Part shown: in pieces, positions 6,977-24,113 of the stretch | How the letters are laid out: the number at the start of each line of letters is the position of its first letter | Position numbering within the stretch: position 1 is the first letter of the stretch | Origin: Nitrospira sp. | GTDB taxonomy: Bacteria; Nitrospirota; Nitrospiria; Nitrospirales; Nitrospiraceae | DNA: 64,000 nucleotides | Assembly: GCA_029194535.1 (NCBI GenBank) | Contig: JARFXR010000002.1 | Coordinates: 806,001 to 870,000 of the forward strand | Direction of reading: 5' to 3' | The notes under the pieces: model-generated | What the model was told of the DNA's origin: nothing | What the model saw: only the letters and a program-made list of their open reading frames with translations | The model's database searches: none | Made by a program: the position numbers and the translations under genes

Positions 6977-9037
6977 TCAGAAATACCAGGCCAGGCCGCC
7001 CATGAAGAACCGCGGATTGCCCGGCACGAAATGAATATCGTTGACGCCGGTCGCTTCGTTTCGCAACCGCGATTCAAAATAGAAGATGGCCTGCTCCCAT
7101 TGGGTATCCAGAAGGTTTTGGACGAAGAGAAATGCCTCCAGGCGGCCGTAGGGCAGCTTGATCGGCAATCGATACCGTTCGGTCAGGTCAAAGTCGACCC
7201 AGGACGGGGCCTTCACACTGCGGTCCTCCGTCAGCGGGCGCACACCCATGTAGGTGGCCTGCAATTGCGAGGTGAGCGCCTCGGGCCAGTTCAACAGCAG
7301 GGCGCCATAGGCGGTCAGTTCCGGGGCCAATGGGATGGCATCACCATTGTTGAATTCCGCTTTCGTGTAGGCGACGTGACCGTTGAAATAGAGCGGCCCC
7401 CAGATCTGACCCCGTGCCGCCACTTCGACACCCCGACGGCGGGTGGGACCGCGGTTTTCCGTTGTCCCTTCGTCACCGACAAACACCAACTCCGATTGGA
7501 GATCGATCGCCCACAGCGAGGCAGTCAACATCACCCCCTCCGGACCCCAGGGTTGGGCGCGCAGACCGACCTCGTAGGTCTGCGCGCGAGCCAGCGGCAC
7601 TGCATCGATCGCCACAGCCGACCGCGCATCGTTGCTGTGATAGCCTTGCCCATAGTTGGCAAAGAACTCCGTCTTGAACCAAGGCCCCAACACGAGATTG
7701 GCCTTGGGCAAGACCATCCCGGATGTCTTACGACCGGCCGGCTGTTCTGCACAAGTACTGCATCGATTGTTCACATCGAACGTGAAAATCGGGGCACGAA
7801 GCCCTCCCGACAATCTCATCCAGATTGCCGGCTGGAGTTCGGCCTTGACGTAGGGCTCATAGGAAGCCTCAAGAATATCGCTGTCTGTGGTGAAACCGGT
7901 CGGCGCCCTGGTGGTTTGAGTCCCCAAGGTCGCATGGATGTCATCGACACGGGTTTGAAATCCGATCGTGCCCAAGCTGGGGATACCGAATATCTCCGCC
8001 CGCTGCTTATATCCAAGATCGCCTCCATAGATGCCTCGTCGGTCCGACTGCTGAATGCCGTCCCCATTGACCGGGTCGTTGAGAAAGAACGTGAAGTTCG
8101 TGAACAAATCAAACTTGTAGTACTGGCCGTAGGCGTTGGCGAAAAATGTCCCGGCGAACGGGGTGTCATAGTGATAATTCATGCGAAGCGTGGCCCTGGT
8201 GGTGTTTCCTCCTTCGGAGGGGTCGATCGCGCCGAAGCGGTCGAGGGAGCCGTCGTTGACAGCCCGGAGCGGAATTTCCCCTGATGCATTCCATTGGCCT
8301 TTTTGAAAGCTGCCGGTGAGCGCCAATTCATCACGGCTGGAAAAATTCGTCGTCATTTTTCCCAGCACGTTGGCCCGAAAGTACCGATTGTCGTTGAGGT
8401 AGGGCCCGTTCGTGTAGTAGGCCTCTCCGGCAAACAACGTGCGGACCTTATCCTTCGTCGGAGAGAGCATCAAAATGTATCGTTGAGTGTCGAACTGTCC
8501 CCAGGCCCCCTGAACGACTCCCTCCTTGACGACCTCGCGCGTCCGAAAGTTGATCGCCGCCGCCGTGTTAAAGTCGCCGTATTCAGGAAGATAGGCGCCC
8601 TTGGTGGCCTCCACTCCCTCGATCGTCTCCGGAATGATGAAGTTGAGATCCGTGTAGCCTTGACCATGGGCGTGGGAACGGAAATTGATCGGCATGCCGT
8701 CGGTGAAGAACGCCACGTCGGTGCCGTGGTCGGCATCGAATCCGCGCACGAAATATTGATCGGCTTTGCCGGCTCCGCCGGAATGTTCCACGGCGATGAA
8801 GCCGGGAATCAGCCGCAGCACTTGGGCCGGCCGACCCTGAGGCTGGAGGAGATACTCCTTGTCGGGAATAAATTGCTGCGAGGAAGCCGCGACCGGCCGG
8901 TCTCCGACGACCGAGACTTCCTGGATTTCGAGATCGGCCGCATCGGGATCGTGGGCGAGCGCCGGGGCGGGGCAAGCCATTACACCGGCAAGCATCATCA
9001 AGCAAGCCGGCGGATTCAGGATAGAAACACGGGCCAT
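6977..9037 (-). CDS. TonB-dependent outer-membrane receptor, probable nickel receptor
   Basis: 686 aa. Signal peptide (residues 1-28, ending ALA-H), a TonB-box-like segment near residues 37-45, a plug domain (about 48-165) with the conserved QYFVRGFDADHG region, then a 22-strand-type barrel ending in the outer-membrane signature GLAWYF. The gene lies downstream of nikR and a DUF3842 gene on the same strand, which suggests uptake of nickel or a nickel chelate across the outer membrane with energy from TonB. Substrate is inferred from context only; the plug has His residues (RSHAHGQGY) but these are not proof. The leader contains a strong nested hairpin and repeated TTCGTGG half-sites. Confidence 0.85.
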   Translation of the reverse strand: MARVSILNPPACLMMLAGVMACPAPALAHDPDAADLEIQEVSVVGDRPVAASSQQFIPDKEYLLQPQGRPAQVLRLIPGFIAVEHSGGAGKADQYFVRGFDADHGTDVAFFTDGMPINFRSHAHGQGYTDLNFIIPETIEGVEATKGAYLPEYGDFNTAAAINFRTREVVKEGVVQGAWGQFDTQRYILMLSPTKDKVRTLFAGEAYYTNGPYLNDNRYFRANVLGKMTTNFSSRDELALTGSFQKGQWNASGEIPLRAVNDGSLDRFGAIDPSEGGNTTRATLRMNYHYDTPFAGTFFANAYGQYYKFDLFTNFTFFLNDPVNGDGIQQSDRRGIYGGDLGYKQRAEIFGIPSLGTIGFQTRVDDIHATLGTQTTRAPTGFTTDSDILEASYEPYVKAELQPAIWMRLSGGLRAPIFTFDVNNRCSTCAEQPAGRKTSGMVLPKANLVLGPWFKTEFFANYGQGYHSNDARSAVAIDAVPLARAQTYEVGLRAQPWGPEGVMLTASLWAIDLQSELVFVGDEGTTENRGPTRRRGVEVAARGQIWGPLYFNGHVAYTKAEFNNGDAIPLAPELTAYGALLLNWPEALTSQLQATYMGVRPLTEDRSVKAPSWVDFDLTERYRLPIKLPYGRLEAFLFVQNLLDTQWEQAIFYFESRLRNEATGVNDIHFVPGNPRFFMGGLAWYF

Positions 9038-9060: not shown

Positions 9061-9125
9061 TTCGTGGACCAACGGCCCACGAAGGTCTGGCGCGAAGGTT
9101 CGCGCGTTGTGTCAGACCTTCGTGG
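9061..9125 (-). promoter_or_regulatory. Nested hairpin and TTCGTGG dyad in the receptor leader
   Basis: Arms 9077-9089 and 9113-9125 pair over 13 bp (CCACGAAGGTCTG with CAGACCTTCGTGG) and enclose a second perfect hairpin (GCGCGAA/TTCGCGC, 9090-9105 on the plus strand). A competing dyad, TTCGTGG (9061-9067) with CCACGAA (9077-9083), shares one arm with the large stem, so the two cannot form together. It could be a terminator between DUF3842 and the receptor, an attenuator, or a NikR operator. Confidence 0.5.
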
Positions 9126-9151
9126 TCTGAGTGAGGAGAAAATCCGTCGGC

Positions 9152-9577
9152 TCAGGCGAGCGAGCCGACAGTCACTAGAAATTGGACTCGACGAAGCGAG
9201 CGGGCAATGAGGTGCTCAAGCTTATGCTCCTCCGTGCCGACGACTTCCACCTGTGCCTGATTGACCGGTAACAAGACCTTTTTGGCCCTCGCGCCCAAGA
9301 TCGCCCGAACGACAGCCGGCGTGACGTCTCCGACTGTGGCGCTCGCCAATACAAGATTGAGCGACAGGAGAATTACGTCAGCGGTCGGCACCGTTGCCAC
9401 GATGGCGCGTCCTCCGGCACCCACCTGCGCGGCACCGGCGGCCTTCATGGCCGTGGCAGCCGCTTGATTCGTGCCCAGCCCGATGATCTGATGGGCATCT
9501 CCCAACTGCGACTGGAGTCCGGCCACCAACCGGCGGCCCAATCCTCCGCCGCGCCCATCGATCACGCAGATGCGCAT
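9152..9577 (-). CDS. DUF3842 family protein
   Basis: 141 aa, single domain. Starts with MRICVIDGRGGGLGRRL, a Rossmann-like nucleotide-binding loop (GxGGG at residues 8-12), and contains the conserved segments IIGLGTNQAAATAM, GDVTPA and LLPVNQAQVEVVG of DUF3842. Function of the family is unknown. Its start lies within the last codons region of nikR (stop at 9580), so translation is almost certainly coupled and the protein probably serves nickel homeostasis. It is followed by the hairpin region and the TonB receptor gene. Confidence 0.75.
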   Translation of the reverse strand: MRICVIDGRGGGLGRRLVAGLQSQLGDAHQIIGLGTNQAAATAMKAAGAAQVGAGGRAIVATVPTADVILLSLNLVLASATVGDVTPAVVRAILGARAKKVLLPVNQAQVEVVGTEEHKLEHLIARSLRRVQFLVTVGSLA

Positions 9578-9579
9578 GG

Positions 9580-9996
9580 CTACACGAGCCCCTTCCCGGT
9601 CGTCGTCATCGTCAATTTACCGTGCTTGACGCCTTTGACACTCACCAAGGCGTCGGCGACCTGTCTGATCTCGGAGCCTTTGCCTTTTACGACGAGCACT
9701 TCGAGACAATGATCGTGGTCGAGATGCACGTGCATGCCGGACAGGATCTTTCCATGATAGTCATGCTGAATATCGGTCAGCTTGCTCGTGAGGTCGCGCA
9801 CATGGTGGTCGTACACGAAGGTGATGGTGCCGACCGTTTCCTTATCCTCATCCCACTCCTGCCCGACCAAATTGTCGCGGATCAGGTCGCGGAGCGCTTC
9901 CGAGCGGTTGGTGTAGCGGCGGCGTTGGATGTGCTGGTCGAACGTCTTGAGCAGCTTTTGATCGAGAGAAACGCCGAATCGTACCAGTTGCTTCAT
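9580..9996 (-). CDS. nikR: Nickel-responsive transcriptional regulator NikR
   Basis: 138 aa ribbon-helix-helix DNA-binding domain (residues 1-45) joined to an ACT-like nickel-sensing domain. The high-affinity Ni ligands are conserved with the spacing of E. coli NikR: H78, H89, H91 and C97 (H76, H87, H89, C95 in E. coli). The basic residues RRRYTNRSEALRDLIR match the RHH helix. ATG 9996 has a GGGGG/GGGAG purine run upstream. First gene of a minus-strand unit nikR-DUF3842-TonB receptor, implying nickel-dependent repression of the receptor. Confidence 0.93.
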   Translation of the reverse strand: MKQLVRFGVSLDQKLLKTFDQHIQRRRYTNRSEALRDLIRDNLVGQEWDEDKETVGTITFVYDHHVRDLTSKLTDIQHDYHGKILSGMHVHLDHDHCLEVLVVKGKGSEIRQVADALVSVKGVKHGKLTMTTTGKGLV

Positions 9997-10020
9997 CTCC
10001 CGTCCCCCTCGTTTATAGTG

Positions 10021-10064
10021 CCACGAATGTTATTTTAGTAGCACCACGATGCCGAGCCTGTCAA
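10021..10064 (-). promoter_or_regulatory. Candidate nikR promoter with possible NikR half-sites
   Basis: On the minus strand TTGACA (10059-10064) is separated by 18 bp from TACTAA (10035-10040), a plausible sigma-70 promoter for nikR. The plus-strand bases CCACGAA (10021-10027) and ACCACGA overlapping the spacer repeat the TTCGTGG half-site found upstream of the receptor gene. Confidence 0.4.
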
Positions 10065-10154
10065 CCGACGATTCTCGACCCTGAACGTCTTACGAGAGCT
10101 CGGTCCTGGTTGGATGTGCGTGAAATAGGAGAGGCTGCATCAGCCCTAGAGCGA

Positions 10155-11114
10155 TTACAGCATCTCGTTTTGGGGAGAGGAAACGACCAACAGCAAACAG
10201 CCTTCGTCGGTCCAGGTGTCGTAGTGTTCGGTCCCGGCCTCGGCACGATGATAGTCTCCAGCCGCCAATTCATGGCCGGCGATGTTGCAACCGCCCTGCA
10301 ACACATAGAGATCCTCCGCCTCCGTGTGACGATGCGGCGCGTACTTGGTACCCGGTGCAAAACGAAGGAGGGTCGCGGCCCTTCGAGAGGCCATATCGAA
10401 GGAGAGCACCTTGGCTTTCACTCCCGGTTCGATCTCTCGCCAGACTCCCTCCGCTGCTTTGATGAAGGTGAGCCCCTGGCCAGACTGCTGAAAACCGATC
10501 TTGGTGCCCGACAATCGAGAGGTCTCGGAACGAATTGGAATGGTCCGCAGGAGGCGCAAAAACGCCTTCCAGCAAAGCCGCAGCGACGTGTACAGTGTCA
10601 CGAGGAAGTGGCGCCAAGCATGCGCAAACCGATGAGGCGGCGAGCCCACACTGTCGTCAAGGAAACCTGCCCGACCTTCAGTTATCCGCCCTCCGCCTTT
10701 CGAAACAGGCGTCTCCACCAGACCGTCTGCTACGCCCTTGACATCAAGCGGGACATCCGCAGGCCCTCCGATCCGAGACATGAGCCGCTCCCGTACAGAA
10801 TCCCTGGGTGTGACAGGAACGCCCCCTAAGACCAGGGCATTCGCGGCCAACTCGAACTGTTCGCCTTCGCGAGCGGCTTCTTTCGCGACCCGGTTGACGA
10901 GGCGTTCACGCAGGCTTGACGGAGGCGGCACCGGAGCCAGCGAAGCGGCCAATGCTTCCGCGGTTGCTTGATACGCTCTCACGGCTTGGCGCACGAGAGC
11001 TGATTCCCCCGGAAGCCTCACCATGAAGGCCTGGCGGTCCTCAGGATCCAAGATCCCGAGGGCATGGAGCATCGCCTGTTCTTCCAATTCTTCCGGCAAC
11101 TTTGTCTCAGTCAC
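10155..11114 (-). CDS. Cupin-containing anti-sigma factor (RskA-like N-terminus, ChrR-like cupin)
   Basis: 319 aa, no membrane span. Residues 1-60 (LHALGILDPEDRQAF) resemble the N-terminal sigma-binding helices of RskA/ChrR-type anti-sigma factors, but the HxxxCxxC zinc motif is absent. The C-terminus (about 215-319) is a cupin with the metal-ligand set HRHTEAED and later histidines, as in ChrR. Its start overlaps the sigma factor stop by 4 bp, so the two are translationally coupled. Residues about 171-210 are encoded by a degraded copy of the 25.3-kb inverted-repeat element, forming an odd basic/hydrophobic linker between the two domains. The cupin probably senses an oxidant or metal. Confidence 0.75.
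   Translation of the reverse strand: MTETKLPEELEEQAMLHALGILDPEDRQAFMVRLPGESALVRQAVRAYQATAEALAASLAPVPPPSSLRERLVNRVAKEAAREGEQFELAANALVLGGVPVTPRDSVRERLMSRIGGPADVPLDVKGVADGLVETPVSKGGGRITEGRAGFLDDSVGSPPHRFAHAWRHFLVTLYTSLRLCWKAFLRLLRTIPIRSETSRLSGTKIGFQQSGQGLTFIKAAEGVWREIEPGVKAKVLSFDMASRRAATLLRFAPGTKYAPHRHTEAEDLYVLQGGCNIAGHELAAGDYHRAEAGTEHYDTWTDEGCLLLVVSSPQNEML
10485..10600. repeat. Remnant of the 209-bp inverted-repeat element, inside the anti-sigma gene
   Basis: On the minus strand, 41 bases beginning TCGCTGCGGCTTTGCTGG match the element at 25262-25470 at about 34 positions, including GGC-TTTTTGCGC-TCCTGC. The end CAGACTGCTGAAAA resembles the element's terminal repeat GCAGGCTGCGGAAAA. It is kept in frame within the coding sequence. 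Confidence 0.65.
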
Positions 11115-11710
11115 GACAGCAACCCACTCTCATAAGGCGCAAGGGCTTCCCGCAATTTGATCATACCCGATCTGATTCTCGTCTTCACCGTACCCAGCGG
11201 CAGCTGCAGTTTCGCGGCAATCTCACTTTGGCTTAAGCCATAGAAATAGGCGAGAGCGACGGCTTCTCGTTGCTCGGTTGTCAGCACCGCCAACGCCTGC
11301 TGGACATACCGCCGGCGCTCTTGCCCTTCCACGTTCTGTTCCGGCGTGTCATCGTCGCTGGCAAACAATTCGACGGCATCCAGCGATTCGATTCGCCCAT
11401 GTTCGGCCGCCCCGGCGCGAAACCGATCGATCGCCCTGGTGCGGGCCAGGGTCATCAGCCACGCTCCCGGCGCACCCCTGGTCGTGTCGTACGTATGGGC
11501 CTGACGCCACACTTGAGTGTAGACATCCAAGGTCACTTCTTCGGCAGCCTCGCGATTATCGAGTATCTTATAGATCATCCCGAATACTTGTGGACTCGTC
11601 CGATCATAGAACGTGGCGAGCGCGGTCTGATCGCCCTGCGCGGTCAGCGCGATCAGCTGGGCCAATTCTTGGTCTTGAGCCGCCCTGGTCGTTTCCAATG
11701 TCGGGATCAA
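11111..11710 (-). CDS. ECF-family RNA polymerase sigma factor (SigK-like)
   Basis: 199 aa with sigma region 2 (about residues 30-95: YDRTSPQVFGMIYKIL to WLMTLARTRAIDRFR) and region 4 (about 135-190, helix-turn-helix YGLSQSEIAAKLQLPLGTVKTR). Length and motifs fit a minimal extracytoplasmic-function sigma. The start is TTG 11710, with GGGGAGG about 10 bases upstream. The stop overlaps the cupin anti-sigma start by 4 bp. A shared motif (ATCC, 16-17 bp, CGTA) upstream of both this gene and the divergent hemoglobin gene suggests autoregulation and control of the divergent operon. Confidence 0.88.
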   Translation of the reverse strand: MIPTLETTRAAQDQELAQLIALTAQGDQTALATFYDRTSPQVFGMIYKILDNREAAEEVTLDVYTQVWRQAHTYDTTRGAPGAWLMTLARTRAIDRFRAGAAEHGRIESLDAVELFASDDDTPEQNVEGQERRRYVQQALAVLTTEQREAVALAYFYGLSQSEIAAKLQLPLGTVKTRIRSGMIKLREALAPYESGLLS

Positions 11711-12081
11711 TAGACGTTCCTCCCCGTAAACCTCTACGAGCCTACTGGGAGGATTGGATTTCTACGCTGCAGTTCGTCGCCAGGCTCGCACAGCGGAACA
11801 GCTTCCCCAATGACGCAATTGTATTCTGCTTTTCGGAAGGTCTCAACTATCGTGGGTAGTGGGCCGGTTTCCTCTTGCGTCATGGCCGCCCCCGATCGCA
11901 GTCGAGGGCAGGCTTCGGCGGGCATCCACTCCTCAACCAAGACTCCCCTCGGGCAAATCATTTTTGCAATCAGATCCGAACGAGAAGACATCTCGTAATG
12001 GAAAACAGGTCGACCACGGTCGCAAACGCAAGGGACAGCGTTCCATACATCAACCATTTTCTTCGACAGGAGGACAACACC
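11711..12081. promoter_or_regulatory. Divergent regulatory region with two candidate ECF promoters
   Basis: 371 bp without a credible gene. Minus strand: AAATCC (11756-11761) and CGTAG (11734-11738), 17-bp spacing, reading toward the sigma gene. Plus strand: AGATCC (11972-11977) and CGTAA (11994-11998), 16-bp spacing, reading toward the truncated-hemoglobin gene. Both resemble TGATCC/CGTA-type ECF promoters recognised by sigmas with ChrR-like partners. The middle (11853-11950) holds a partial copy of the 1077-1230 repeat. Confidence 0.45.
11853..11950. repeat. Partial copy of the 1077-1230 MITE-like repeat
   Basis: Shares GGGTAGTGGG, GTTTCCTCTTGCGTCATG and GGCGGGCATCCACTCCTCAA with the left half of the element at 1077-1230. 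A ~30 bp insertion separates the hairpin arms and the right terminal repeat is missing. Confidence 0.7.
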
Positions 12082-12555
12082 ATGAAGCACTCTCTCGCAG
12101 CATCCCTCGCGCTCATCGGGTTCGCGCTCAGCGTTACAGGCTGCAGCACTATGGAGTCGACGCCGAAATCAACGATGGCGGACACATCGCTGTATGACCG
12201 TCTGGGCGGCAAGCCGGCGATCACCGCTGTCGTGGATGACTTCGTCGGACGGGTCGCCGCAGATAACCGGATCAACGGCAAGTTCGCCAATACGGATATT
12301 CCTCGCTTGAAGACGCTGCTCGTTGAACAGATCTGCCAGGCCTCCGGGGGCCCCTGTACCTATACAGGCCGCAGCATGAAAGTCACCCATGCAGGCATGG
12401 GCGTCAGCAGCGCGGACTTCGATGCGCTCGTCGGCAATTTGGTCGCGACATTGAACAAATTCAAGGTTCCAGAGCGTGAAAAGAACGAACTGCTCGGCGC
12501 GTTGGGTCCCATGAAAACAGATATCGTCGAGCAGCCGCGGATGTCTATGAACTGA
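12082..12555 (+). CDS. Lipoprotein with group 1 truncated hemoglobin domain
   Basis: 157 aa. Residues 1-20 form a lipoprotein signal with lipobox VTGC (Cys21). The rest is a group 1 truncated hemoglobin: LYDRLGGKPAITAVVDDF at the start, the segment GPCTYTGRSMKVTHAGMGV carrying the likely proximal histidine, and a helical C-terminus. Such proteins bind heme and O2/NO. Membrane-tethered periplasmic versions are unusual compared with cytosolic ones. ATG 12082 follows AGGAGG. Probably the first gene of the operon reading to HupE and, by promoter motif, a target of the divergent ECF sigma. Confidence 0.85.
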   Translation: MKHSLAASLALIGFALSVTGCSTMESTPKSTMADTSLYDRLGGKPAITAVVDDFVGRVAADNRINGKFANTDIPRLKTLLVEQICQASGGPCTYTGRSMKVTHAGMGVSSADFDALVGNLVATLNKFKVPEREKNELLGALGPMKTDIVEQPRMSMN

Positions 12556-12601: not shown

Positions 12602-12832
12602 ATGAAATCGCGCATTCATCCATCTCTGAGCCTCCTGTTTGCCGTCGGACTCCTGTCCGGCTGCGGCGGGAACGACGGCGCATCGAGCCCAGCTGTCGTA
12701 TCAAGTGAAGCGACAGCGGCGCCGACCGACGATCAGCGCGCTCCGCAATCGGACGCGCTGACGCCGGCAGAGGTCGCCCAGGTCAATCAAGCCGGCACGG
12801 AACCTGAGCCCCCGAAGAAACCGGACATGTAG
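12602..12832 (+). CDS. Small lipoprotein, unknown function
   Basis: 76 aa. Start chosen at ATG 12602 with GGAGGAAG eight bases upstream. Signal peptide with lipobox LSGC (Cys21 or nearby), followed by a short, Ala/Thr/Pro-rich, probably disordered chain ending in KKPDM. No domain recognised. It lies between the hemoglobin lipoprotein and DUF4331 genes on the same strand with short gaps. Confidence 0.65.
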   Translation: MKSRIHPSLSLLFAVGLLSGCGGNDGASSPAVVSSEATAAPTDDQRAPQSDALTPAEVAQVNQAGTEPEPPKKPDM

Positions 12833-12875: not shown

Positions 12876-14369
12876 ATGTTGATCCAGATACGATCACTCA
12901 TTCTGGCGGCACTGGTGCCGCTGATCGCCGCACCGGCTTTTGCCGCAAGCCATCGCGAAGCGCCGATGATCTCGAACGACCCGGCGGCGGACATCACCGA
13001 CTTCTATGTGTTCCGAAGCTGGCAGGATCCCGACAAGGCGATTCTGATCCTGAACGTGATTCCGAGCCAGGAACCGGGATCCGGCCCCAACTATTTCACC
13101 TTCGCCGACGACGTGCTGTACGAGATCCACGTCGACAACAACAAGAACAACATCGCGGCGAACATCGTCTACCAGATCCGGTTCAAGACCGAGATCCGGC
13201 AGCCGGGCAACGTGTTCCCGCTGGCCTATGTCGCGCTGCCTCCGATTACCGCGCTCACCGGCGGCGGATCCGAGGGATTGCTTGTCCGCCAAAGCTACAC
13301 GGTGACGGAGGTGCGATTCGGTCAGCAACCCAGAGACCTGGGGACCGGCCCGATGTACGCCGTCCCTTCGAACGTGGGAAGCCGAACGACACCGAACTAT
13401 GAACAGTTGGCGGTCAAGGGGGTGTTTCCCTTGAAGAACGGCGGACGCGTTTTCGCCGGACAGCGGGATGAAACGTTCTACATCGATCTCGGCGGCACGT
13501 TCGACACGCTCAATCTTCATGTGTCACCCATTCTCTCTCCCGCGGACGATGCGAATGACCACATCATCGTCGACGCGCCGGGCGCCGGGACGGCGGATAC
13601 CTTCAGCGGCTTCAACGTGAACACCATCGCCCTGGAGATTCCGATCAGCGACCTGACGGGCCCGAAGGGCAACAAGCTGATCGGCGCCTACGCCAGCACG
13701 AGCCGGCCGAAAGTCACGGTCATCAAGAAGGACGGCGATCGGCAGAACAGCGGTCGCTTCGTCCAAGTGGCGCGCATGGGCAATCCCCTCGTGAACGAAT
13801 TGATCATCGCGACGAGCATGAAAGACACATGGAATGCCACGGACGCGGAAGACGAGGCGAATTTCGTCTCGTTCTATTGCAATTCGGCGCTCGCGACGGC
13901 CTTGAACGCGGTGTTCGGGACCGGATTCCCGACGACGAATCGGGAAGATCTGGTCAACGCGCTGCTTCGCTACAGCCCAGGGCCGCCGGTCTGCGGCGGA
14001 GGAATCGGGAGCGAGACGCTTTCCGACCTCCTGCGGGTTGATTTGGGCGTAGCTCAGACCGCAGCGGACAGTCAGCGGCGGCTGGGTCCGCTGGCCCACG
14101 ACGCAGCCGGGAACCCGACGCCGGACAAGGCCGGCTGGCCGAACGGGCGGCGCCCCAACGATGATGTGACCGACGTCGCGCTGCGGGTCGTCGGCGGCAT
14201 CCTCACGAACCCTGCGACTCCGAACCTGGGGGACGGCGTGAACTTCAACGTCGGCTCAGTAGGCGGCAACAAAACGGCGAACGGCATCGCCACGGCGTTT
14301 CCGTTTTTGCCCACGCCGCACGACGGCCGCGACCGCCGGCACATTGATCCGCGAGAGCCCTCGAATTAG
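12876..14369 (+). CDS. DUF4331 family exported protein
   Basis: 497 aa with a cleaved signal peptide (residues 1-23, AFA-AS) and a mature start SHREAPMISNDPAADITDFYVF that is the hallmark of DUF4331. The protein is predicted to be periplasmic or extracellular, beta-rich, with only one cysteine pair near residues 330-370. Biochemical function of the family is not known to me. It is followed by tonB, a TPR gene and a HupE/UreJ gene on the same strand, a grouping that suggests a transport-related role. Confidence 0.8.
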   Translation: MLIQIRSLILAALVPLIAAPAFAASHREAPMISNDPAADITDFYVFRSWQDPDKAILILNVIPSQEPGSGPNYFTFADDVLYEIHVDNNKNNIAANIVYQIRFKTEIRQPGNVFPLAYVALPPITALTGGGSEGLLVRQSYTVTEVRFGQQPRDLGTGPMYAVPSNVGSRTTPNYEQLAVKGVFPLKNGGRVFAGQRDETFYIDLGGTFDTLNLHVSPILSPADDANDHIIVDAPGAGTADTFSGFNVNTIALEIPISDLTGPKGNKLIGAYASTSRPKVTVIKKDGDRQNSGRFVQVARMGNPLVNELIIATSMKDTWNATDAEDEANFVSFYCNSALATALNAVFGTGFPTTNREDLVNALLRYSPGPPVCGGGIGSETLSDLLRVDLGVAQTAADSQRRLGPLAHDAAGNPTPDKAGWPNGRRPNDDVTDVALRVVGGILTNPATPNLGDGVNFNVGSVGGNKTANGIATAFPFLPTPHDGRDRRHIDPREPSN

Positions 14370-14431
14370 GACGAGGCCCGGCGGGTGCCGCGCGCACGCG
14401 CGGCGCCTGCCGTGATGGCGAGGCGCAGGGC

Positions 14432-15475
14432 GTGACTGCAACGACCACAACAGGAGACGGGAGCCTCCACCGGTTCGAGGGATGGCTCCTCTCGCTCGTC
14501 CTTCATGGCCTTGTGCTTTTCGCTGCCCTGCCGCTGCTCCGTCGATTGCCGATCCAGATTCCTGCAGAACCGTTTCGCTGGGAGGTGACCCTCGTCCAAT
14601 GGGCAGAGATCGCCGCTGAACCGATGTATCCAACGCACATCACCGAGCAGATGGTGCCGACATCCATGGAGCCGGCGCCGCTCACGGCTCAGGTCGGCAA
14701 ACCGCTCGACAGGGCTGCCCATGCCGACAGTATCGTCCCTGTTCCCGCAACCCAGGAGGCGGCTGCCGTCGCAGCAATCCAGTCCATCGATCCTTTACCA
14801 ATCCCGGAACCCGCGGAACCGGTCTCTGCCTTTCAGGACAGCGCTGTGACGGCAGAGCCGCAGCCCTCGGCTCCGGCGCCGACCACAGCGCCGGTAGAAG
14901 CCGCCCCTGCCATGCGTCACAGGGGTCCGGCGCTACGCCAAGTAACCGAAGAGCCGGCCCAATCGATCCCGGCATCGGCAGAAGAATCCGCCACCGCGCT
15001 TCGGACAAGCGATCCACCGGTTCAATCGCCCGAGCCTGCAGCCGCCCCGACGCTGCAAGACCAGCCGGCGCCGACGGCGGTCGCAGCGGGCTCAGACAAT
15101 TCCAACGCTCCGTCCACAGAAGCCGTTCAAGGCGTACCACAAATAGTCTCCGGGCCCGCTCAGGCTGCCACTGCATCAACGGCGCGCGCAGACTACGGCT
15201 GGCTCCAGCGCGCGATCTTCCAGCGCTTGGAGGAGATCAAACGGTCCTCACGACCGTCGCTCGATCAGTCGCGTCCACTCAAGGTCTTGGTCAAAGCCGT
15301 CGTGTCGGATAAGGGCATGCTTGTGGAAAGTGAGGTGGTCAAGAGTTCCGGCCTCGATCGCATCGACCAGGAAGCGATGGCGCTCGTGCAACGGGCCTTT
15401 CCCTTGCAACTCGATCGTCTATTAGATCGTCAGCGGATCGTCCTGCGTATTCCAATCACCTATTCGCGAGACTAA
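14432..15475 (+). CDS. TonB family energy transducer
   Basis: 347 aa. One N-terminal membrane anchor (about residues 17-37), a long Pro/Ala/Glu-rich periplasmic spacer (40-245) and a C-terminal TonB domain (about 250-345: WLQRAIFQRLEEIKR, then KVLVKAVVSDKGMLVESEVVKSSG). Couples proton motive force through ExbB/ExbD, which are not in the window, to TonB-dependent receptors. GTG start at 14432. Second TonB of the window is at 30272. Located 62 bp after DUF4331 and 5 bp before the TPR gene, so it is likely dedicated to this system. Confidence 0.85.
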   Translation: MTATTTTGDGSLHRFEGWLLSLVLHGLVLFAALPLLRRLPIQIPAEPFRWEVTLVQWAEIAAEPMYPTHITEQMVPTSMEPAPLTAQVGKPLDRAAHADSIVPVPATQEAAAVAAIQSIDPLPIPEPAEPVSAFQDSAVTAEPQPSAPAPTTAPVEAAPAMRHRGPALRQVTEEPAQSIPASAEESATALRTSDPPVQSPEPAAAPTLQDQPAPTAVAAGSDNSNAPSTEAVQGVPQIVSGPAQAATASTARADYGWLQRAIFQRLEEIKRSSRPSLDQSRPLKVLVKAVVSDKGMLVESEVVKSSGLDRIDQEAMALVQRAFPLQLDRLLDRQRIVLRIPITYSRD

Positions 15476-15480
15476 CACTC

Positions 15481-16674
15481 ATGAATCGATCACGCTTTAT
15501 CGCGGTCTTGACGCTGCTCGCTTGGCTCGCGGTAAGCCACAGCGGTGAAACGACGGCTGAACCCTATCGTCCTGAACAAGCCGCACAGGTCCTCGAACGG
15601 CTCAGCTTCAAGCCGACTGATCCGGTTGAGCGAGAGGTCAGGGCGCTGAGGAACCGCTTGGCAGCAGACCCGCGCAACCTTGATTTGGCCGTACAATTGG
15701 CCGCTCGCTACATCGAACGGGGTCGATCGGAAGGTGATCCGCGTTTCCTAGGACAGGCCCAGGCGGTCCTGGCCCCATGGTGGAACGAACCGATGCCTCC
15801 GCCTGCGGCGCTCCTCCTGCGAGCGACAATCAGCCAGCACGGCCATGAATTCGACCGGGCCCTCGGCGATCTCGACCAGGTGCTGGTCGCGCAGCCGACC
15901 AACGCGCAAGCTTGGCTGACCAAAGCTGCGATTCTTCAAGTCCAGGCCCGCTATGATGATGCGCGTCGAGCGTGCCAGCCGCTGGGACGGCTCGCTCCTC
16001 GCCACGTGATCCTCACCTGCCTCAGCGACATCGCCGGTCTGACCGGCCAAGCGGCACAGAGCCAGGAGCTCCTCAGCGGGCTCCGCAACGATCCGAGGGT
16101 CTCAGTCCATGAAGGGATCTGGATCCGGACCGTCCTTGCGGAAATTGCAGCGCGCACCGGCGATGTCACAACCGGCGAGCAATATTTTTCAGAAGCCGTC
16201 AAGACCGGCGTGAAAGATCAGTACCTCTTAGCTGCCTACGCCGACTTCCTCTTGGATCAAGGCCGCCATCGAGAGGTCATCACCCTGCTCCAACACGAGA
16301 CGAGAGCCGACGGACTGCTCCTGAGGCTCGCGCTGGCCGAACAGGCGCTTGGCGCGCCGTCGGCAAAGGACCGCGTGGCGATGCTCGCCGCGCGATTTGC
16401 CGCTGCCCGCGAACGCGGCACCAACGTGCACGTGCGGGAAGAAGCGCGGTTCACGCTGGCCTTGCTGCGAGACCCGCACCGGGCGCTGCAGTTGGCCCAG
16501 ATCAACTGGCAGGTCCAGCGAGAACCGGCCGACGCCAGAATGCTTCTCGAAAGCGCGCTGGCAGCCGGCGACCATGAGGCAGCCAAGCCGGTGCTCGACT
16601 GGCTGAGCGCCAACCATGTTGAAGGCCTGCGCCTCCGCAAACTGGCGAAGCGATTCGAGGAGTACGACAAATGA
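15481..16674 (+). CDS. Exported TPR-repeat protein
   Basis: 397 aa with a signal peptide (residues 1-25) and repeated helix pairs typical of tetratricopeptide repeats (about residues 60-95, 115-180, 225-265, 330-380), giving a protein-binding periplasmic solenoid. Its stop codon overlaps the start of the HupE/UreJ gene (ATGA), and it starts 5 bp after tonB, so the three are one translation-coupled unit. Likely a scaffold or partner for the neighbouring transport proteins. Confidence 0.75.
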   Translation: MNRSRFIAVLTLLAWLAVSHSGETTAEPYRPEQAAQVLERLSFKPTDPVEREVRALRNRLAADPRNLDLAVQLAARYIERGRSEGDPRFLGQAQAVLAPWWNEPMPPPAALLLRATISQHGHEFDRALGDLDQVLVAQPTNAQAWLTKAAILQVQARYDDARRACQPLGRLAPRHVILTCLSDIAGLTGQAAQSQELLSGLRNDPRVSVHEGIWIRTVLAEIAARTGDVTTGEQYFSEAVKTGVKDQYLLAAYADFLLDQGRHREVITLLQHETRADGLLLRLALAEQALGAPSAKDRVAMLAARFAAARERGTNVHVREEARFTLALLRDPHRALQLAQINWQVQREPADARMLLESALAAGDHEAAKPVLDWLSANHVEGLRLRKLAKRFEEYDK

Positions 16675-17795
16675 ATAGCCTGATCCTTGCCCTCGTGGTA
16701 GCCCTCTTGAGCCAGCCTGCTTGGGCGCACAAACCCAGCGACAGTTATCTGGCGCTGACCGTTCAGGGCGACCGCATCCACGGCCAGTGGGATATTGCCT
16801 TGCGAGACTTGAACGACGCGATAGGATTGGATGCCGACAACGACGGGGCCATCACCTGGGGAGAGGTGCAGGCTAACCATGGCGGGATCGCGACCTACGC
16901 CCTCTCACGCCTGCGACTGCAGTCCCAGGGGGCCGCCTGCCGGACCGCCGTCACGGACCACCTTATCGACCGCCATACGGACGGCGCCTACGCCGTGCTT
17001 CGACTCACCGCCATGTGCCCGGCGAACATCATACAGCTGGCGATCGACTACCGCCTCCTCTTCGACTTGGATGCCCAGCACAAGGGGCTGTTGCGCCTGA
17101 CGCACAAGGACAAGACGCAGACGTCGATTTTCAGCCAGGACTCTCCCTCCAGGTCCTTCTCAATGGGAGACACCTCGGGCTGGCCGCAACTCGGGCAGTA
17201 CCTGCACGAAGGGGTCTGGCACATCTGGCAGGGATTCGATCACGTTCTGTTCTTGCTCGTGCTGCTGCTGCCGGCGGTGCTGGTGCGAGTCGATCGCCAC
17301 TGGCAAGCGGTTGAAGATCTTTCCTCCGCAGTCCGTGAGGTGGTCGCTATCGTGACGGCCTTTACTGTCGCTCATTCGTTGACCTTGAGCCTCGCTACAC
17401 TGGGGATCATTCAATTGCCCTCCCGCCTGGTCGAATCGGCCATTGCCCTCTCAGTCGCGATAGCGGCGCTTGCGAATCTATATCCGACCATGTTGCGTCG
17501 TCGCTGGTTCGTCGCCTTTGGGTTCGGCCTCATCCATGGATTTGGATTTGCCGGCGTCCTGTCCGATTTGGGGCTACCCCAAGACTCCTTGCTGCTGAGC
17601 CTGGTCGGTTTCAACGTCGGCGTTGAGATCGGCCAACTTGCCATCGTGGCCCTGTTCCTTCCGCTCGCCTATACCTTCCGTGAGGCTTCAACCTACCAAC
17701 CGATCGTGGTCCAGGCCGGCTCTGTCGTGGTCATGCTTGTGGCGCTGGTCTGGCTGGTCGAGCGCGCGCTGGATCTGAAACTGCTTCCTGCCTAA
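16671..17795 (+). CDS. HupE/UreJ-type permease with EF-hand-like N-terminal domain
   Basis: 374 aa. Signal peptide (residues 1-19, AWA-H), an N-terminal periplasmic domain with an EF-hand-like loop DADNDGAITWGE (residues 54-65), then a HupE/UreJ-2 membrane domain of about seven helices starting near residue 185 with HEGVWHIWQGFDHVLFL and the later FGLIHGFGFAGVL motif. HupE/UreJ proteins are nickel or cobalt permeases in hydrogenase and urease clusters; the larger UreJ-2 form is less characterised. Overlaps the TPR gene by 4 bp. With nikR nearby, nickel transport is possible but unproven. Confidence 0.8.
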   Translation: MNSLILALVVALLSQPAWAHKPSDSYLALTVQGDRIHGQWDIALRDLNDAIGLDADNDGAITWGEVQANHGGIATYALSRLRLQSQGAACRTAVTDHLIDRHTDGAYAVLRLTAMCPANIIQLAIDYRLLFDLDAQHKGLLRLTHKDKTQTSIFSQDSPSRSFSMGDTSGWPQLGQYLHEGVWHIWQGFDHVLFLLVLLLPAVLVRVDRHWQAVEDLSSAVREVVAIVTAFTVAHSLTLSLATLGIIQLPSRLVESAIALSVAIAALANLYPTMLRRRWFVAFGFGLIHGFGFAGVLSDLGLPQDSLLLSLVGFNVGVEIGQLAIVALFLPLAYTFREASTYQPIVVQAGSVVVMLVALVWLVERALDLKLLPA

Positions 17796-19479: not shown

Positions 19480-22095
19480 TCATAATTCCACATGACGTAA
19501 TCTGAGCGCGTTGGAAATGACCGAGACGGAACTGAACGTCATGGCCGCGCTGGCGATCATCGGACTGAGCAGGAGTCCCCAGTGGGGATAGAGCAACCCT
19601 GCGGCGATCGGCACTCCGATCAGGTTGTAGGCAAAGGCGAAGAAGAGATTCTGCCGGATATTGCGCATCGTGGCCTGACTCAATCGCCTGGCCCGGACCA
19701 ATCCGCGGAGATCGCCTTTGACCAGCGTCACACCGGCGCTCTCCATGGCGATGTCCGTTCCGTTCCCCATCGCGATGCCCACGTCGGCGAACGCGAGCGC
19801 CGGCGCATCGTTGATGCCGTCCCCGGCCATGGCGACCACCCGCCTCTTCGACCGCAGCTCGGCGATGAGTGCGCCTTTTTGGTCCGGCAGCACCCCGGCA
19901 TGCACCGACTCGATCCCCAGCTGTGCGGCCACCCGGTCCGCCGTCGCGCGATGGTCGCCCGTGACCATGACCAGCTCGATACCGTCCTCTTTTAGCGCTT
20001 TCACGGCTTCCGCCGTCGTGGACTTGATCGGATCGGTGACGCCGAGCAACCCGCCGACCCGCCCGTCCGCCGCAACGAACAAGACCGTCTGTCCTTCGCC
20101 TCGCAGCGACGCGGCCTCCTCGTTTAACGTGCGCAGATCATCCTCGGATACTCCCGCCTCCTCCCGCAGAAAAGTCGCCGTGCCCACGGCGACACGGCGA
20201 CCCGACACCAGCCCGATCACCCCCTTGCCGGTCACGGATCGGAACTGTTCGACGGCCGCCGGAACGATGCCTCGGCGCTCCGCCCCGGCGACCACCGCGG
20301 AAGCCAGCGGATGCTCGCTGCTGCGTTCGAGACTCGCCGCCAGTTTCAACAATTCGTCGTCGGTCCAGGGAGGAGCAAACCGCACGGTCACCAGTTTCGG
20401 CCTTCCCTCTGTGAGCGTTCCGGTCTTGTCGACCACCACCGTATCCACGCGGCCCAGGATTTCCAGCGCCTCCGCCTTCTTGATCAAGACCCCGGCCGTC
20501 GCACCACGCCCGGTCCCCACCATGATCGACATCGGCGTCGCCAATCCCAACGCGCAAGGACAGGCGATGATCAACACCGCCACGGCGTTGACCAAGGCAT
20601 GGGCCAATCTCGGTTCCGGCCCCCAGATGGCCCACGCCAGCGCCGTAAGCGCCGCAACCGCCACGACCAGCGGGACGAAATAGGCTGCAACGACGTCCGC
20701 CACCCGTTGAATCGGCGCTCTCGTACGTTGTGCCTCGCCGACCATTTGAACGATGCGAGCCAACAAGGTGTCCCGGCCGACCAGCCGAGCTTCTATGAGG
20801 ATGCTGCCGGTCCCATTGATCGTTCCCCCGGTGACCCTCGTACCCGCCTGCTTCTCCACCGGCATCGGCTCCCCGGTAATCATGGACTCATCGACGGCGG
20901 TCGCCCCCTCGACGACAAGTCCGTCGACCGGCACTCGCTCTCCCGGACGTACTCGCAGCCGGTCTCCCACCTGCACGGTTTCGAGAGAAATATCCTTCTC
21001 AGTTCCATCGGTGCCGACCAGCCGGGCCGTCTTGGGAGCCAATCCAAGCAGCGCCTTCATGGCCGAGGTCGTCTGACTCCGGGCGCGCAGCTCAAGGACC
21101 TGTCCGAGGAGGACCAACACCGTTATCATGGCCGCCGCCTCGAAATACACCGCGACGGACCCGTCATGGAGGTGGAAGGACGCCGGCAGCAGCCCCGGCG
21201 CCACGGTCGCGACCATACTGTACGCATAGGCGGCACCGGTGCCGAGCGCAATGAGCGTGAACATGTTCGGCGCCCGATTGACGATCGAAGCCCATCCCCG
21301 CTCGAAAAACGGCCAGCCGCCCCAGAGAACCACGGGAGTTGCAAGCGCCCATTGGACCCAATTCAACAGGACGCCGCGGCCGGCCGCTCCGAATGGATCT
21401 CCCGGAATCATATGGGCCATCGCGAGCACCATCACGAGCGCAGCCGGACCCAGGCTGATCCAGAAACGTCGGGTCATGTCCAGGAGTTCGAGATTCGGCC
21501 CCTCGTCGAGCGAGACGACCTTCGGCTCCAAGGCCATGCCACAGATGGGACAAGCGCCCGGCTGGTACTCGAGCACCTCCGGATCCATGGGGCAGATATA
21601 TTCGATCGTCGCGCCGGCCGGTGCCGTGACGACCTGCGGCTTGCGCTGGGACGGAGGCACGAGATAAGAAGCCGGATCGGCCTGAAACTTGGCGAGGCAC
21701 CCCGTGGAGCAGAAGACGTATGTCTTGCCTTCGTGGACGTGCGACCCAGCCGCGGTCTTCGGCTGCACCGTCATTCCGCAAACAGGATCGATCTCGGCCC
21801 CTCCCGCCTCGGCAGGAGCCGGCATCATCATCTGCAACGGTTTCTTCTTTCCCAAGGAGATGAGACCGGCGGTCGGCGGCCGCAGGACCAAGTCCGGATC
21901 GGCTTTGAATGTGTTGAGGCAGGAGACGGCGCAGAAGTAGTAGGTCTTGCCATGATAATCGTACCGGCCCGCAGCCGTGGTTGGATCCACAGTCATTCCG
22001 CAGACCGGGTCGATCTCCGACCGAATCTTCTCGTCCATTCCATTACCTATAGTATGCCGACTTCCGCAACAGCCGCCCGTCGATCCAGGCACCAT
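19480..22095 (-). CDS. Copper-type P1B ATPase with two YHS domains
   Basis: 871 aa. N-terminal part has two YHS domains, each starting with IDPVCGMTV (about residues 28-70 and 101-145), and a heavy-metal binding segment [10 protein letters not shown]...[10 protein letters not shown] (about 165-192) instead of the common CxxC HMA domain. The ATPase core has eight membrane helices, the CPC metal site in [13 protein letters not shown], the TGE loop, phosphorylated DKTGT, the SEHPLA motif and GDGIND. Most consistent with Cu(I)/Ag(I) export. ATG 22095 has GGAGCGGG upstream; another ATG (MDEK) lies 57 bp in. Encoded directly downstream of a Cys-tailed ECF sigma gene. Confidence 0.92.
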
Positions 22096-22259
22096 GGTCC
22101 CGCTCCTTTCATCTTATACGGTCTGGTTGCTTAATGTCCCGTTCACTATGAGGACGGATGAGGCGGCGGGATATTACAGAGGGTCCGCCTGCGCAAAGGG
22201 GAACTTGCGAAAAGGCGGAAATGACACAGTGGCGGAAAGGAGAAGGGTAAGCTGGACGA

Positions 22260-22823
22260 CTATCCGCAGGCGCAGTTGAGGCAGCCGTGTCTGCTGCAGA
22301 TGCCGCAGGAGTCTTCAAGGGCAGCGCGTAAGGCCTGGCGGGCTCTGTGCAATCGAACCGTCAGATTGTTCCGGGATATCTTCAATGCTTCCGCGACAAG
22401 CGCCGGCGATTCCCCCTCAAGGTCGATACGCCTGATGAGCTCCGCATAGGACCCACGGAGTTGTGGGAGGAGCCGGTGTAGGCAGGCGCAGACCGTGGCT
22501 CTCACCTCATCCGGCGGCGGCTCCTGATGGTCGCCCGTAACCGTCAGCTCTCGGAGTAAGGCGTCGTTGCGACGCGTTTCGGCTCCTTGGGATCGATAAT
22601 AATCGATCAGCGCGTGGCGAAGGATGCGGTAGAACCATGCCACGGCGCTTTCCTCATTGTGTACCGCATGGTGACGTTCCACGGCCCGCATCAAGCTTTG
22701 CTGGAGGATATCGTCCACGACGGCTTCGTCGCCGAGCCGGCGGCTCAAGAACGACCGGAAAGCCGACTCGTGCGCAATCAGCCTTTGCACGACATCGCTC
22801 GGTTTTCTTTCCTTCTTCATCAT
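22260..22823 (-). CDS. ECF sigma factor with C-terminal cysteine-rich tail
   Basis: 187 aa: sigma region 2 (residues 15-85, with VVDDILQQSLMRAVE and AWFYRILRHALIDYYRS), region 4 (about 110-170, SPALVAEALKISRNNLTVRLHRAR), then a tail with the Cys pattern C-x2-C-x4-C-x2-C-x-C in the last 15 residues. No anti-sigma gene is adjacent. Such Cys tails suggest direct metal sensing, as in the copper-responsive CorE-type sigmas of Myxococcus; the exact subgroup is not certain. It lies directly upstream of the copper ATPase gene. An array of heptad repeats fills the gap between this start and the DsbA-like gene's stop. Confidence 0.82.
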   Translation of the reverse strand: MMKKERKPSDVVQRLIAHESAFRSFLSRRLGDEAVVDDILQQSLMRAVERHHAVHNEESAVAWFYRILRHALIDYYRSQGAETRRNDALLRELTVTGDHQEPPPDEVRATVCACLHRLLPQLRGSYAELIRRIDLEGESPALVAEALKISRNNLTVRLHRARQALRAALEDSCGICSRHGCLNCACG

Positions 22824-22826
22824 GTG

Positions 22827-22868
22827 TCACCCGTCACCGATCGCGTATCACTGATCATTCGTCATTTC
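22827..22868. repeat. Heptad repeat array between dsbA-like and ECF sigma genes
   Basis: Six in-phase 7-mers, mostly TCANNNN (TCACCCG, TCACCGA, TCGCGTA, TCACTGA, TCATTCG, TCATTTC). They fill the whole intergenic space and include the stop codon of the DsbA-like gene (22862-22864). Confidence 0.7.
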
Positions 22869-23518
22869 TTCACATCCGCGTCGAGAATGCTCCGGATAAC
22901 GGCAATGATATTGTCCGTCTTCATATTCTCGCCTTCGATCTTGATATTACCGTCGAGCAGCAATGTGGGCGTGGACTGAACCTTGATGCGTTCTCCCCAC
23001 TGCTTCCCGTCCTCGAAGGCTTTCGCCGGTTTCCCGCTGGCCAACCCCTCTTCGAACGCTTTGGGATCGAGGCCGACCTCCTTGATCAGCCCTTCGCGTA
23101 AGCTCCGATCCAATACCCCCGTGACCTTGTCCTGATGAATGGTGCGAAACAGCACCCGTTTCATTTCGTCGCCTTTGCCCATGATCTTCGCCTGTTCATA
23201 CATATCGAAGGGAGTCGGAAGCTTGTTGCGAAACACCGGAAAGCCGACCATGGTCGCCTCCAGCTTATTGCCGAATTCCTTCTGAAGGATCGGGAGACCG
23301 GCTTCATCGAAGTGATGGCAATGGGGACAATAAAAGTCGGCGAATTCGATGAGCTTGACCTTGCCGGGCTTGTGGGTGGACGGCTCGCCGTTCAAGAGTT
23401 CGAACTTGCCTTTTAGTTCAGGCGTTGCCGCCGTAGCGCCGTCGCTTGCGAGGACGCCGACACCCAACCAGATCGCCAGAACGCCGACCGCCCAATGCCA
23501 CCGAATTTTCTTCACCAT
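22862..23518 (-). CDS. DsbA-like thiol:disulfide oxidoreductase
   Basis: 218 aa. ATG 23518 is chosen because AAGGAG lies nine bases upstream; longer in-frame starts would precede the signal peptide. Signal anchor about residues 5-28, then a thioredoxin/DsbA fold with active site CPHC in FADFYCPHCHHF, helical insertion, and the cis-proline segment VQSTPTLLLDG. Likely an envelope thiol oxidoreductase, perhaps helping metal or cytochrome proteins. Same strand as the Cys-tailed sigma and copper ATPase. A TATAAT hexamer lies about 45 bp upstream. Confidence 0.85.
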   Translation of the reverse strand: MVKKIRWHWAVGVLAIWLGVGVLASDGATAATPELKGKFELLNGEPSTHKPGKVKLIEFADFYCPHCHHFDEAGLPILQKEFGNKLEATMVGFPVFRNKLPTPFDMYEQAKIMGKGDEMKRVLFRTIHQDKVTGVLDRSLREGLIKEVGLDPKAFEEGLASGKPAKAFEDGKQWGERIKVQSTPTLLLDGNIKIEGENMKTDNIIAVIRSILDADVKK

Positions 23519-23560
23519 ATCCATCCACTCCTTTCCTTGTCTCTCGACCGTAGAGTCCCC

Positions 23561-23566
23561 ATTATA
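23561..23566 (-). promoter_or_regulatory. Candidate -10 element for the DsbA-like gene
   Basis: Perfect TATAAT on the minus strand, 43 bp before the ATG. No good -35 hexamer is visible 17 bp upstream, so activator dependence is possible. Confidence 0.35.
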
Positions 23567-23594
23567 TCGAACGTTTCGAGGACATACCCTCTGA

Positions 23595-23600
23595 TATACT
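23595..23600 (+). promoter_or_regulatory. Candidate -10 element giving a leaderless slp-like mRNA
   Basis: TATACT ends six bases before the ATG at 23607. If used, transcription would start at or within a base or two of the start codon, giving a leaderless message. No Shine-Dalgarno sequence is present. Confidence 0.35.
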
Positions 23601-23606
23601 GCCGTC

Positions 23607-24113
23607 ATGTTCTTACAGGCAGCACCCGTGGCCCTGCTCTTTCTCGTCATCATGGGCTGCGCCTCGACCGAGCAGACCGATGACGCCCCTCAGGTCACCT
23701 TTCAGCAAGTTAAGGCTTCCCCGGATGCTTTCAAGGGGCAGTCGGTCATCTTCGGCGGCGAGGTACTCACGGCCAGACGGATGAAAGACGGCACGAGAGT
23801 CGAAATACTTCAGCTGCCCCTCGGCAGTTCCGGTTCTCCCGTGCATGACCTGACACAGTCACAGGGCCGCTTCGTGGCAATCCAGAAGGAATTCCTTGAT
23901 CCGGCCACCCTGCCCTATGGGACCAGAGTCACGGTAACCGGAGAGATGGCGGGATCAATCACGCTCCCGCTCGACGAAACCGAATACAACTATCCGATCG
24001 TCGAAACGAAACGACTGCGGGTCTGGTCCGATGCGACTCGGCCGGTTCCGCGATTCCGACCCTACTACGGTCCCGGCCCCTACTCGTCGCCCTATTGGAA
24101 CCCGTACTGGTGA
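23607..24113 (+). CDS. Slp-family outer-membrane lipoprotein
   Basis: 168 aa. Lipoprotein signal with lipobox VIMGC (Cys18), then a domain that resembles the Slp/YeaY family: VTFQQVKASPDAFKGQSVIFGGEVL, IQKEFLDPATLPYGTRVTVTGEM, and a Tyr/Pro-rich C-terminus with PYYGPGPY. Slp proteins are outer-membrane lipoproteins linked to starvation or acid stress in enterics. Transcribed divergently from the DsbA-like gene and convergently with a TPR gene. Confidence 0.78.
   Translation: MFLQAAPVALLFLVIMGCASTEQTDDAPQVTFQQVKASPDAFKGQSVIFGGEVLTARRMKDGTRVEILQLPLGSSGSPVHDLTQSQGRFVAIQKEFLDPATLPYGTRVTVTGEMAGSITLPLDETEYNYPIVETKRLRVWSDATRPVPRFRPYYGPGPYSSPYWNPYW

Follow-up and report, generated by a model that had tools for sequence, protein, structure and literature searches.

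The anglerase (Ang-1)-HupE/UreJ-2 proteins join a β-sandwich domain that begins at a histidine (His1) to a PF13795 permease; the published Ang-1 domain binds copper and nickel through His1 and is proposed to fish for metal and feed it to the permease (Nat Commun 2025, PMC12537917). At the outer membrane, NikR-regulated TonB-dependent nickel receptors have been described (FrpB4, FecA3, Bll6948 and others; PMC11247825). Elements resembling both are brought together at a locus of Nitrospira sp. (genome of 3.98 Mb; assembly GCA_029194535.1, contig JARFXR010000002.1), analysed here as a window of 64,000 nucleotides (positions 806,001 to 870,000), in which an exported DUF4331 protein, a TonB, an exported tetratricopeptide repeat (TPR) protein and a HupE_UreJ_2 permease are encoded head to tail. 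Based on the collective evidence, the unit is understood as an envelope module acquiring a transition metal of the Ni/Co class, most likely nickel, a reading to which we assign a probability of roughly 60%. Nickel is favoured because NikR, the receptor relatives, the HupE and NicO families and a urease all point to it, and import because of the receptor, NikR and the HupE precedents. An earlier note, made from the window's letters and open reading frames, had proposed import of a nutrient or metal by way of a TonB-energised outer membrane, a periplasmic partner and a permease. The core of that idea is supported, given a conserved neighbourhood, a linked receptor with NikR and two Ni/Co-type permease families; TonB as a fixed part does not. 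The four open reading frames, all on the + strand at 12876-17795, and their family assignments, including the UreJ-2 type of the permease, are borne out by Pfam, as are the tight junctions by the coordinates: 62 bp between DUF4331 and TonB, 5 bp between TonB and TPR, and a 4-bp ATGA overlap between TPR and HupE. The unit and the motifs of its permease are as follows.

12876-14369, + strand: DUF4331 exported protein, predicted mature N-terminus A-S-H-R-E-A-P (ATCUN motif); PF14224, E 4.5e-103
14432-15475, + strand: TonB, GTG start; TonB_2, E 1.1e-4; S-x3-H, Pro/Ala-rich linker, TonB C-terminal domain
15481-16674, + strand: exported TPR protein; TPR_17 and TPR_14 above cut-off
16671-17795, + strand: HupE_UreJ_2 permease with N-terminal anglerase-like domain; PF13795, E 5.6e-52
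16728-17171, + strand: Ang-1-like periplasmic domain, beginning at the predicted His1; structure match to 9GCE
16830-16865, + strand: EF-hand-like loop DADNDGAITWGE; homologue alignment
17220-17243, + strand: HX5DH motif; H184, D190 and H191 invariant

Had the four families occurred independently, with no conserved neighbourhood elsewhere, the proposal of a unit would have lost its ground. Instead the unit recurs at 26 other Nitrospira loci and, in a version without TonB, in other phyla; the grouping is therefore beyond chance. Across Nitrospira, identity to the window is 75-88% for DUF4331 and ~61-71% for TPR and HupE, and only ~40% for TonB. DUF4331 is present in 20 of the 198 Nitrospirota genomes sampled, and in 19 of these 20 a metal permease adjoins it (HupE_UreJ_2 in 15, NicO in 4), NicO replacing HupE in other families of the phylum. 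Phyla beyond Nitrospirota were sampled through plasmid records only, with a resulting bias to megaplasmids. There, HupE adjoins DUF4331 in 11 proteobacterial records; DUF4331 - TPR - HupE is found on plasmids of Comamonadaceae, Lichenicola, Marinobacter and Pseudoalteromonas, the last with an extracytoplasmic function (ECF) sigma factor and an anti-sigma factor encoded immediately upstream, and the order in Paraburkholderia hospita is TPR - HupE - DUF4331. NicO lies within ~3 kb of DUF4331 in 8/8 strongly matching plasmid records from Streptomyces, Streptomycetaceae, Embleya and Nonomuraea; the gene between the two encodes a TPR protein in the annotated actinomycete example, and in Streptomyces anulatus NicO occupies the permease slot. 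The DUF4331 family is known in at least four phyla; viral contigs gave zero DUF4331 and two partial HupE-like loci. The conserved core is DUF4331 - TPR - permease, and no single clue to its function is stronger than this exchange of one Ni/Co permease family for another at the same position.

Two further loci touch on this distribution. On a Hymenobacter plasmid, HupE and a related receptor stand alongside three DUF3500 genes and no DUF4331, making DUF3500 a possible analogous partner family. A Nitrospirota genome of the same family as the window's host, with no reported DUF4331 match, retains a NikR-box-like site close to an 80-aa piece of HupE_UreJ_2; the locus may be present there as a decayed copy.

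DUF4331, absent by name from every paper of the literature searched, is matched by PF14224 over its full length (346 bits against a cut-off of 27; profile positions 2-421 of 421). The post-signal-peptide sequence is [A/S]SHREAP at all 48 DUF4331 loci, which span Nitrospirota, Proteobacteria, Actinomycetota and Bacteroidota; in 47 of them the residue at the predicted cleavage position is A or G. Cleavage as predicted leaves X-Ser-His, the histidine falling at mature position 3 in 48/48. Such an amino-terminal copper- and nickel-binding (ATCUN) site, of the X-Ser-His type, binds Ni(II) and Cu(II), and the best reading of the DUF4331 sequence is a periplasmic protein that would bind metal there. 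Histidine also leads the predicted mature starts of HupE (A↓H, 36/36 loci; the arrow marks cleavage), of NicO (A↓HP[M/L]GN, 5/5) and of the Nitrospira receptor (A↓HDP, 26/27); a crude signal-peptide rule applied to all long open reading frames was too imprecise to serve as a genome background for His1 and His3.

In the permease, the PF13795 domain lies at the C-terminus (176 bits against a cut-off of 24.5). The AlphaFold2 model of the protein (pLDDT 81.7) has as its top Foldseek match 9GCE, the crystal structure of the Ang-1 domain of a HupE/UreJ-2 protein (E 7.3e-6), to which VIA-align superposes it with Z 12.7 and a root-mean-square deviation of 3.0 over 135 aligned residues. As modelled, the N-terminal domain has the Ang-1 β-sandwich fold and starts at the predicted His1. 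The next structural matches are the periplasmic zinc proteins ZrgA and PA4063 (8F1B, 7BGO; Z 10-11), which share the fold but are stand-alone proteins with no HupE permease fusion; a sequence search for solved relatives of the permease gave none, with weak EF-hand-only matches. The EF-hand-like loop pointed out earlier, DADNDGAITWGE, proves real, its positions 1 (D54) and 12 (E65) being invariant in 13 diverse homologues. Invariant too is H-x5-D-H in the transmembrane part, which we take to be the HupE/UreJ signature. In the NicO permeases, from four Nitrospirota loci and S. anulatus, the predicted mature chain likewise opens with His1 and continues into an EF-hand-like stretch. When their profiles are compared, the His1 domains of HupE and NicO align colinearly, the match running from His1 to the end of the EF-hand loop with P 7e-5 and a probability of 35% (0.44 for the reversed control); this is suggestive of homology, short of proof. 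The main text of the Ang-1 paper (PMC12537917), by comparison, is without DUF4331, the TPR partner, ECF control or a NicO counterpart bearing a His1 domain.

A linked receptor gene, recommended in the earlier note as a check, was found: a TonB-dependent receptor is encoded with NikR on the arm of the locus that diverges from the DUF4331 operon. The features upstream of DUF4331, on both strands, are these.

6977-9037, - strand: TonB-dependent receptor, predicted mature N-terminus A↓HDPD; Plug domain, E 5e-14
9152-9577, - strand: DUF3842 protein, in about half of the Nitrospira loci; PF12953, E 3.5e-36
9580-9996, - strand: NikR nickel-responsive regulator; NikR_C, E 1.1e-34; NF003381 above cut-off
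10018-10044, - strand: NikR-box-like element GTGCTAC-N13-GTGGCAC; genome-unique match
10091-10115, - strand: ECF-type promoter motif upstream of nikR; motif and matrix scan
10155-11114, - strand: anti-sigma factor, ChrR-like cupin; Cupin_7, E 1.4e-19
11111-11710, - strand: ECF sigma factor, overlapping the anti-sigma gene; ~75-88% identity across Nitrospira
11735-11759, - strand: ECF-type promoter motif upstream of the ECF gene; footprinting, motif and matrix scan
11974-11997, + strand: ECF-type promoter motif of the globin-lipoprotein-DUF4331-TonB-TPR-HupE unit; footprinting, motif and matrix scan
12082-12555, + strand: truncated globin, in a minority of Nitrospira loci; Bac_globin, E 9.9e-17
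12602-12832, + strand: small lipoprotein, conserved in Nitrospira; LSGCGG lipobox by eye

The same block is seen at the 26 other Nitrospira loci, with receptor - (DUF3842) - NikR - cupin anti-sigma - ECF sigma on one arm and (globin) - lipoprotein - DUF4331 - (TonB) - TPR - HupE on the divergent one; in a few, individual members are missing or a contig end truncates the block. Both receptor and NikR belong to this conserved block, the receptor adjoining nikR at nearly all loci. Its plasmid-borne relatives, ~30-37% identical to it, keep company with nickel genes: HoxN and hydrogenase at 4-5 kb on Cupriavidus pHG1 and adjoining in Bradyrhizobium, NikR and hyp genes in Afipia, NikR and HoxN in Paraburkholderia acidisoli. 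Of the others, the Hymenobacter relative has a HupE gene nearby, the Methylorubrum one has cobalamin genes at a distance of a few kb, and the one in Adhaeribacter lies next to DUF4331-TPR. With the described NikR-regulated nickel receptors the window receptor shares its pairing with NikR, relatives beside HoxN and hydrogenase and, as a candidate operator, a NikR-box-like site; unlike in those systems, the block here adds ECF and anti-sigma genes, and an anglerase-HupE partnered by DUF4331 and TPR serves as permease. At locus L041, a receptor-like stretch 3' of HupE was left out of the count of intact receptors.

In relatives, the interval from DUF3842 to the receptor gene also carries a conserved three-hairpin leader (window 9063-9128, - strand), a candidate metal-responsive RNA, whose complementary loops GAUGAG and CUCAUC could kiss. 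The model of this leader (R1) scores 72-101 bits at 14 loci; its match in the window is weak (21 bits), and the window region folds with a z of -7.0. One locus (L026) has a second copy ahead of a second, distant receptor. Rfam returned nothing meaningful around the nikR-receptor intergenic region.

The two arms are tied together by a promoter motif. Footprinting of the interval that separates the ECF gene from the DUF4331 operon identified ATCCRA-N12/13-CTCGTA there in each of the two directions, and a third copy precedes nikR; the window holds 3 copies against 0.02 expected, with 5 genome-wide and 0 in the backwards control. As the conserved motif sits upstream of both the globin and the lipoprotein gene, these two genes ahead of DUF4331 are apparently transcribed in one unit with it. 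A scoring matrix trained on the ECF and DUF4331-operon promoters only, the nikR sites being left out, was applied at a threshold score of ≥11; since the loci are related, the counts that follow are not independent. Positive were the ECF gene at 25/25 loci, the lipoprotein at 20/26, the globin at 7/7 and, always at 86-94 bp, nikR at 16/27, over a background of 1.35% of random 150-mers; the scan gave no hit upstream of the receptor (0/27), DUF4331 itself (0/27), TPR (0/25) or HupE (0/25). From the position of the motif and the auto-promoter pattern, we infer that the ECF factor of this locus reads it. The arrangement recalls RpoE-ChrR of Rhodobacter in the overlap of the ECF gene with a cupin_7 anti-sigma gene and in its own promoter motif. 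It differs in that the predicted targets are metal genes and in the anti-sigma factor, which scores far under the ChrR model TIGR02451 (29.4 bits against a cut-off of 124.5) and has no HxxxCxxC zinc motif in its N-terminal sequence. The two remaining exact motif matches, C1:338834 (+) and C1:1865562 (-), have spacers almost identical in sequence; inspection by eye of the genes around them showed none recognisable as a metal gene. The stretch from the nikR promoter to the start codon contains GTGCTAC-N13-GTGGCAC, matched nowhere else in the 3.98 Mb genome, which resembles the published delta-proteobacterial NikR signal GTGTTAC-N13/14-GTAACAC (PMC545781). The element is exact and in the same place at 17 related loci; its half-sites (7-mers, N13) form direct or inverted repeats according to species and precede nikR, not the receptor directly.

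TonB fits less firmly into the unit. The gene product passes TonB_2 by a small distance (22.6 bits, cut-off 22) and falls slightly under the cut-offs of TonB_C (20.9, 24.6) and TIGR01352 (26.4, 27.1), and its membrane helix has the S-x3-H motif (SLVLH in the window), present in 6/6 relatives checked. The dedicated TonB proposed in the earlier note is absent from the DUF4331 operon at six Nitrospira loci (L028, L030, L035, L039, L040, L057) and from the unit outside Nitrospira, and at three (L026, L028, L039) a TonB stands between nikR and the receptor instead. With these absences and relocations, TonB was rejected as a core part; it is an accessory, found now in one half of the block and now in the other.

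A mechanism can be proposed on this basis. The receptor encoded with NikR would carry the metal, free or chelated, over the outer membrane, energised by TonB where TonB is present; periplasmic DUF4331 would bind it at the N-terminal [A/S]-S-His site, with the TPR protein as a putative scaffold. The ECF sigma factor and its cupin anti-sigma factor may co-activate their own gene, the DUF4331 operon and nikR, while NikR would sense internal nickel and restrain the nikR-receptor side. Metal identity, transport direction, ATCUN chemistry, the TPR role, the sigma factor that reads the motif and its signal are points that we infer. The genome encodes a urease and therefore needs nickel; its NiFe hydrogenase matches are N-terminal fragments only and were not accepted as hydrogenases, and CbiM and HupE_UreJ (PF04955) have zero matches in it.

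Several observations weigh against nickel acquisition by such a module. The permease is absent beside DUF4331 in several type II secretion clusters of Rhodobacterales; conversely, about half of the Nitrospirota genomes that bear HupE_UreJ_2 are without DUF4331, which shows that this permease also occurs independently of it. Among the loci seen, nikR is linked to the unit in Nitrospira alone, and a NikR-box-like site on the DUF4331 operon itself was not found. The genome also encodes a NicO-type protein, which leaves HupE not the sole candidate for nickel permease. Signal-peptide cleavage sites were assigned by the -3/-1 rule and alignment only. For DUF4331, the structure prediction reached a pLDDT of 28 (with 15 close sequences only), and a sequence search for related solved structures found none. 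A rival reading makes DUF4331 a secreted protein, structural or enzymatic, that has nothing to do with metal and is grouped here through co-regulation only. To our knowledge DUF4331 has no described enzyme activity or fold, and the Rhodobacterales clusters without permease fit such a role. On plasmids of Sulfitobacter, Paracoccus, Marinovum and Jannaschia, DUF4331 and one small gene lie inside type II secretion clusters, a prepilin peptidase gene adjoining in three of the four, which suggests that DUF4331 is secreted there. However, two Ni/Co permease families share the slot beside DUF4331-TPR in three phyla and the histidine at predicted mature position 3 is universal in the 48 loci, making a role apart from metal very unlikely.

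The identity of the metal is a separate matter. ATCUN sites bind Cu(II) tightly, and a heavy-metal P-type ATPase is encoded at 19480-22095 in the window and close by in a few relatives; DUF4331 and the His1 anglerase domain could accordingly collect copper for the cell envelope or for enzymes, with the NikR-receptor genes as mere neighbours. RbAng-1a is mainly copper-binding, and the crystallised Ang-1 domain prefers copper (Kd 74 nM) over nickel (220 nM) (PMC12537917). Copper is possible as the metal because of this in vitro preference, yet the HupE/UreJ and NicO families are known for Ni/Co, the common promoter motif ties the DUF4331 operon to nikR, the receptor relatives accompany nickel genes, and the ATPase is not beside the unit in most relatives, so that a copper-handling system is judged unlikely. 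The ECF sigma factor with its cupin anti-sigma factor, the His-rich loops of the NicO versions, similar to those of efflux pumps, and the globin in the operon of some species would also suit a response to metal or oxidative stress, one that removes or buffers excess metal through an exporting permease, as NicO/RcnA-type proteins can. We regard this as a poor prospect: uptake systems typically feature a TonB-dependent receptor and a NikR-box-like site, both seen here, and the HupE/UreJ proteins tested so far import nickel, according to the passages of PMC12537917 and PMC11247825 that cite them. As to the surroundings of the ATPase, the stretch at 19480-23653, 3' of a DegP-like protease, also encodes a second ECF sigma factor and a DsbA-like protein; these genes directly follow the unit in a few relatives only (five loci).

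Lastly, the reading as a nickel-acquiring module has importance in offering a concrete, testable function for DUF4331. Tentatively, we suggest that the DUF4331 proteins, periplasmic or exported, are a metal-binding family not described before, with a processed N-terminal ATCUN site, which, together with the TPR protein, may form a phylum-spanning module that hands a Ni/Co-class metal to interchangeable HupE_UreJ_2 and NicO permeases, each equipped with a capture domain that starts with a histidine; in Nitrospira, N-terminal histidines would then form a chain from outer-membrane receptor to inner-membrane permease under a dedicated ECF sigma factor. The analysis adds DUF4331 and TPR as candidate partners to the newly named anglerase permeases and links these to NikR, TonB-dependent receptors and ECF sigma factors. 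If true, it would describe a route by which nickel is gathered across the envelope in Nitrospira, nitrite oxidisers that here possess a urease.

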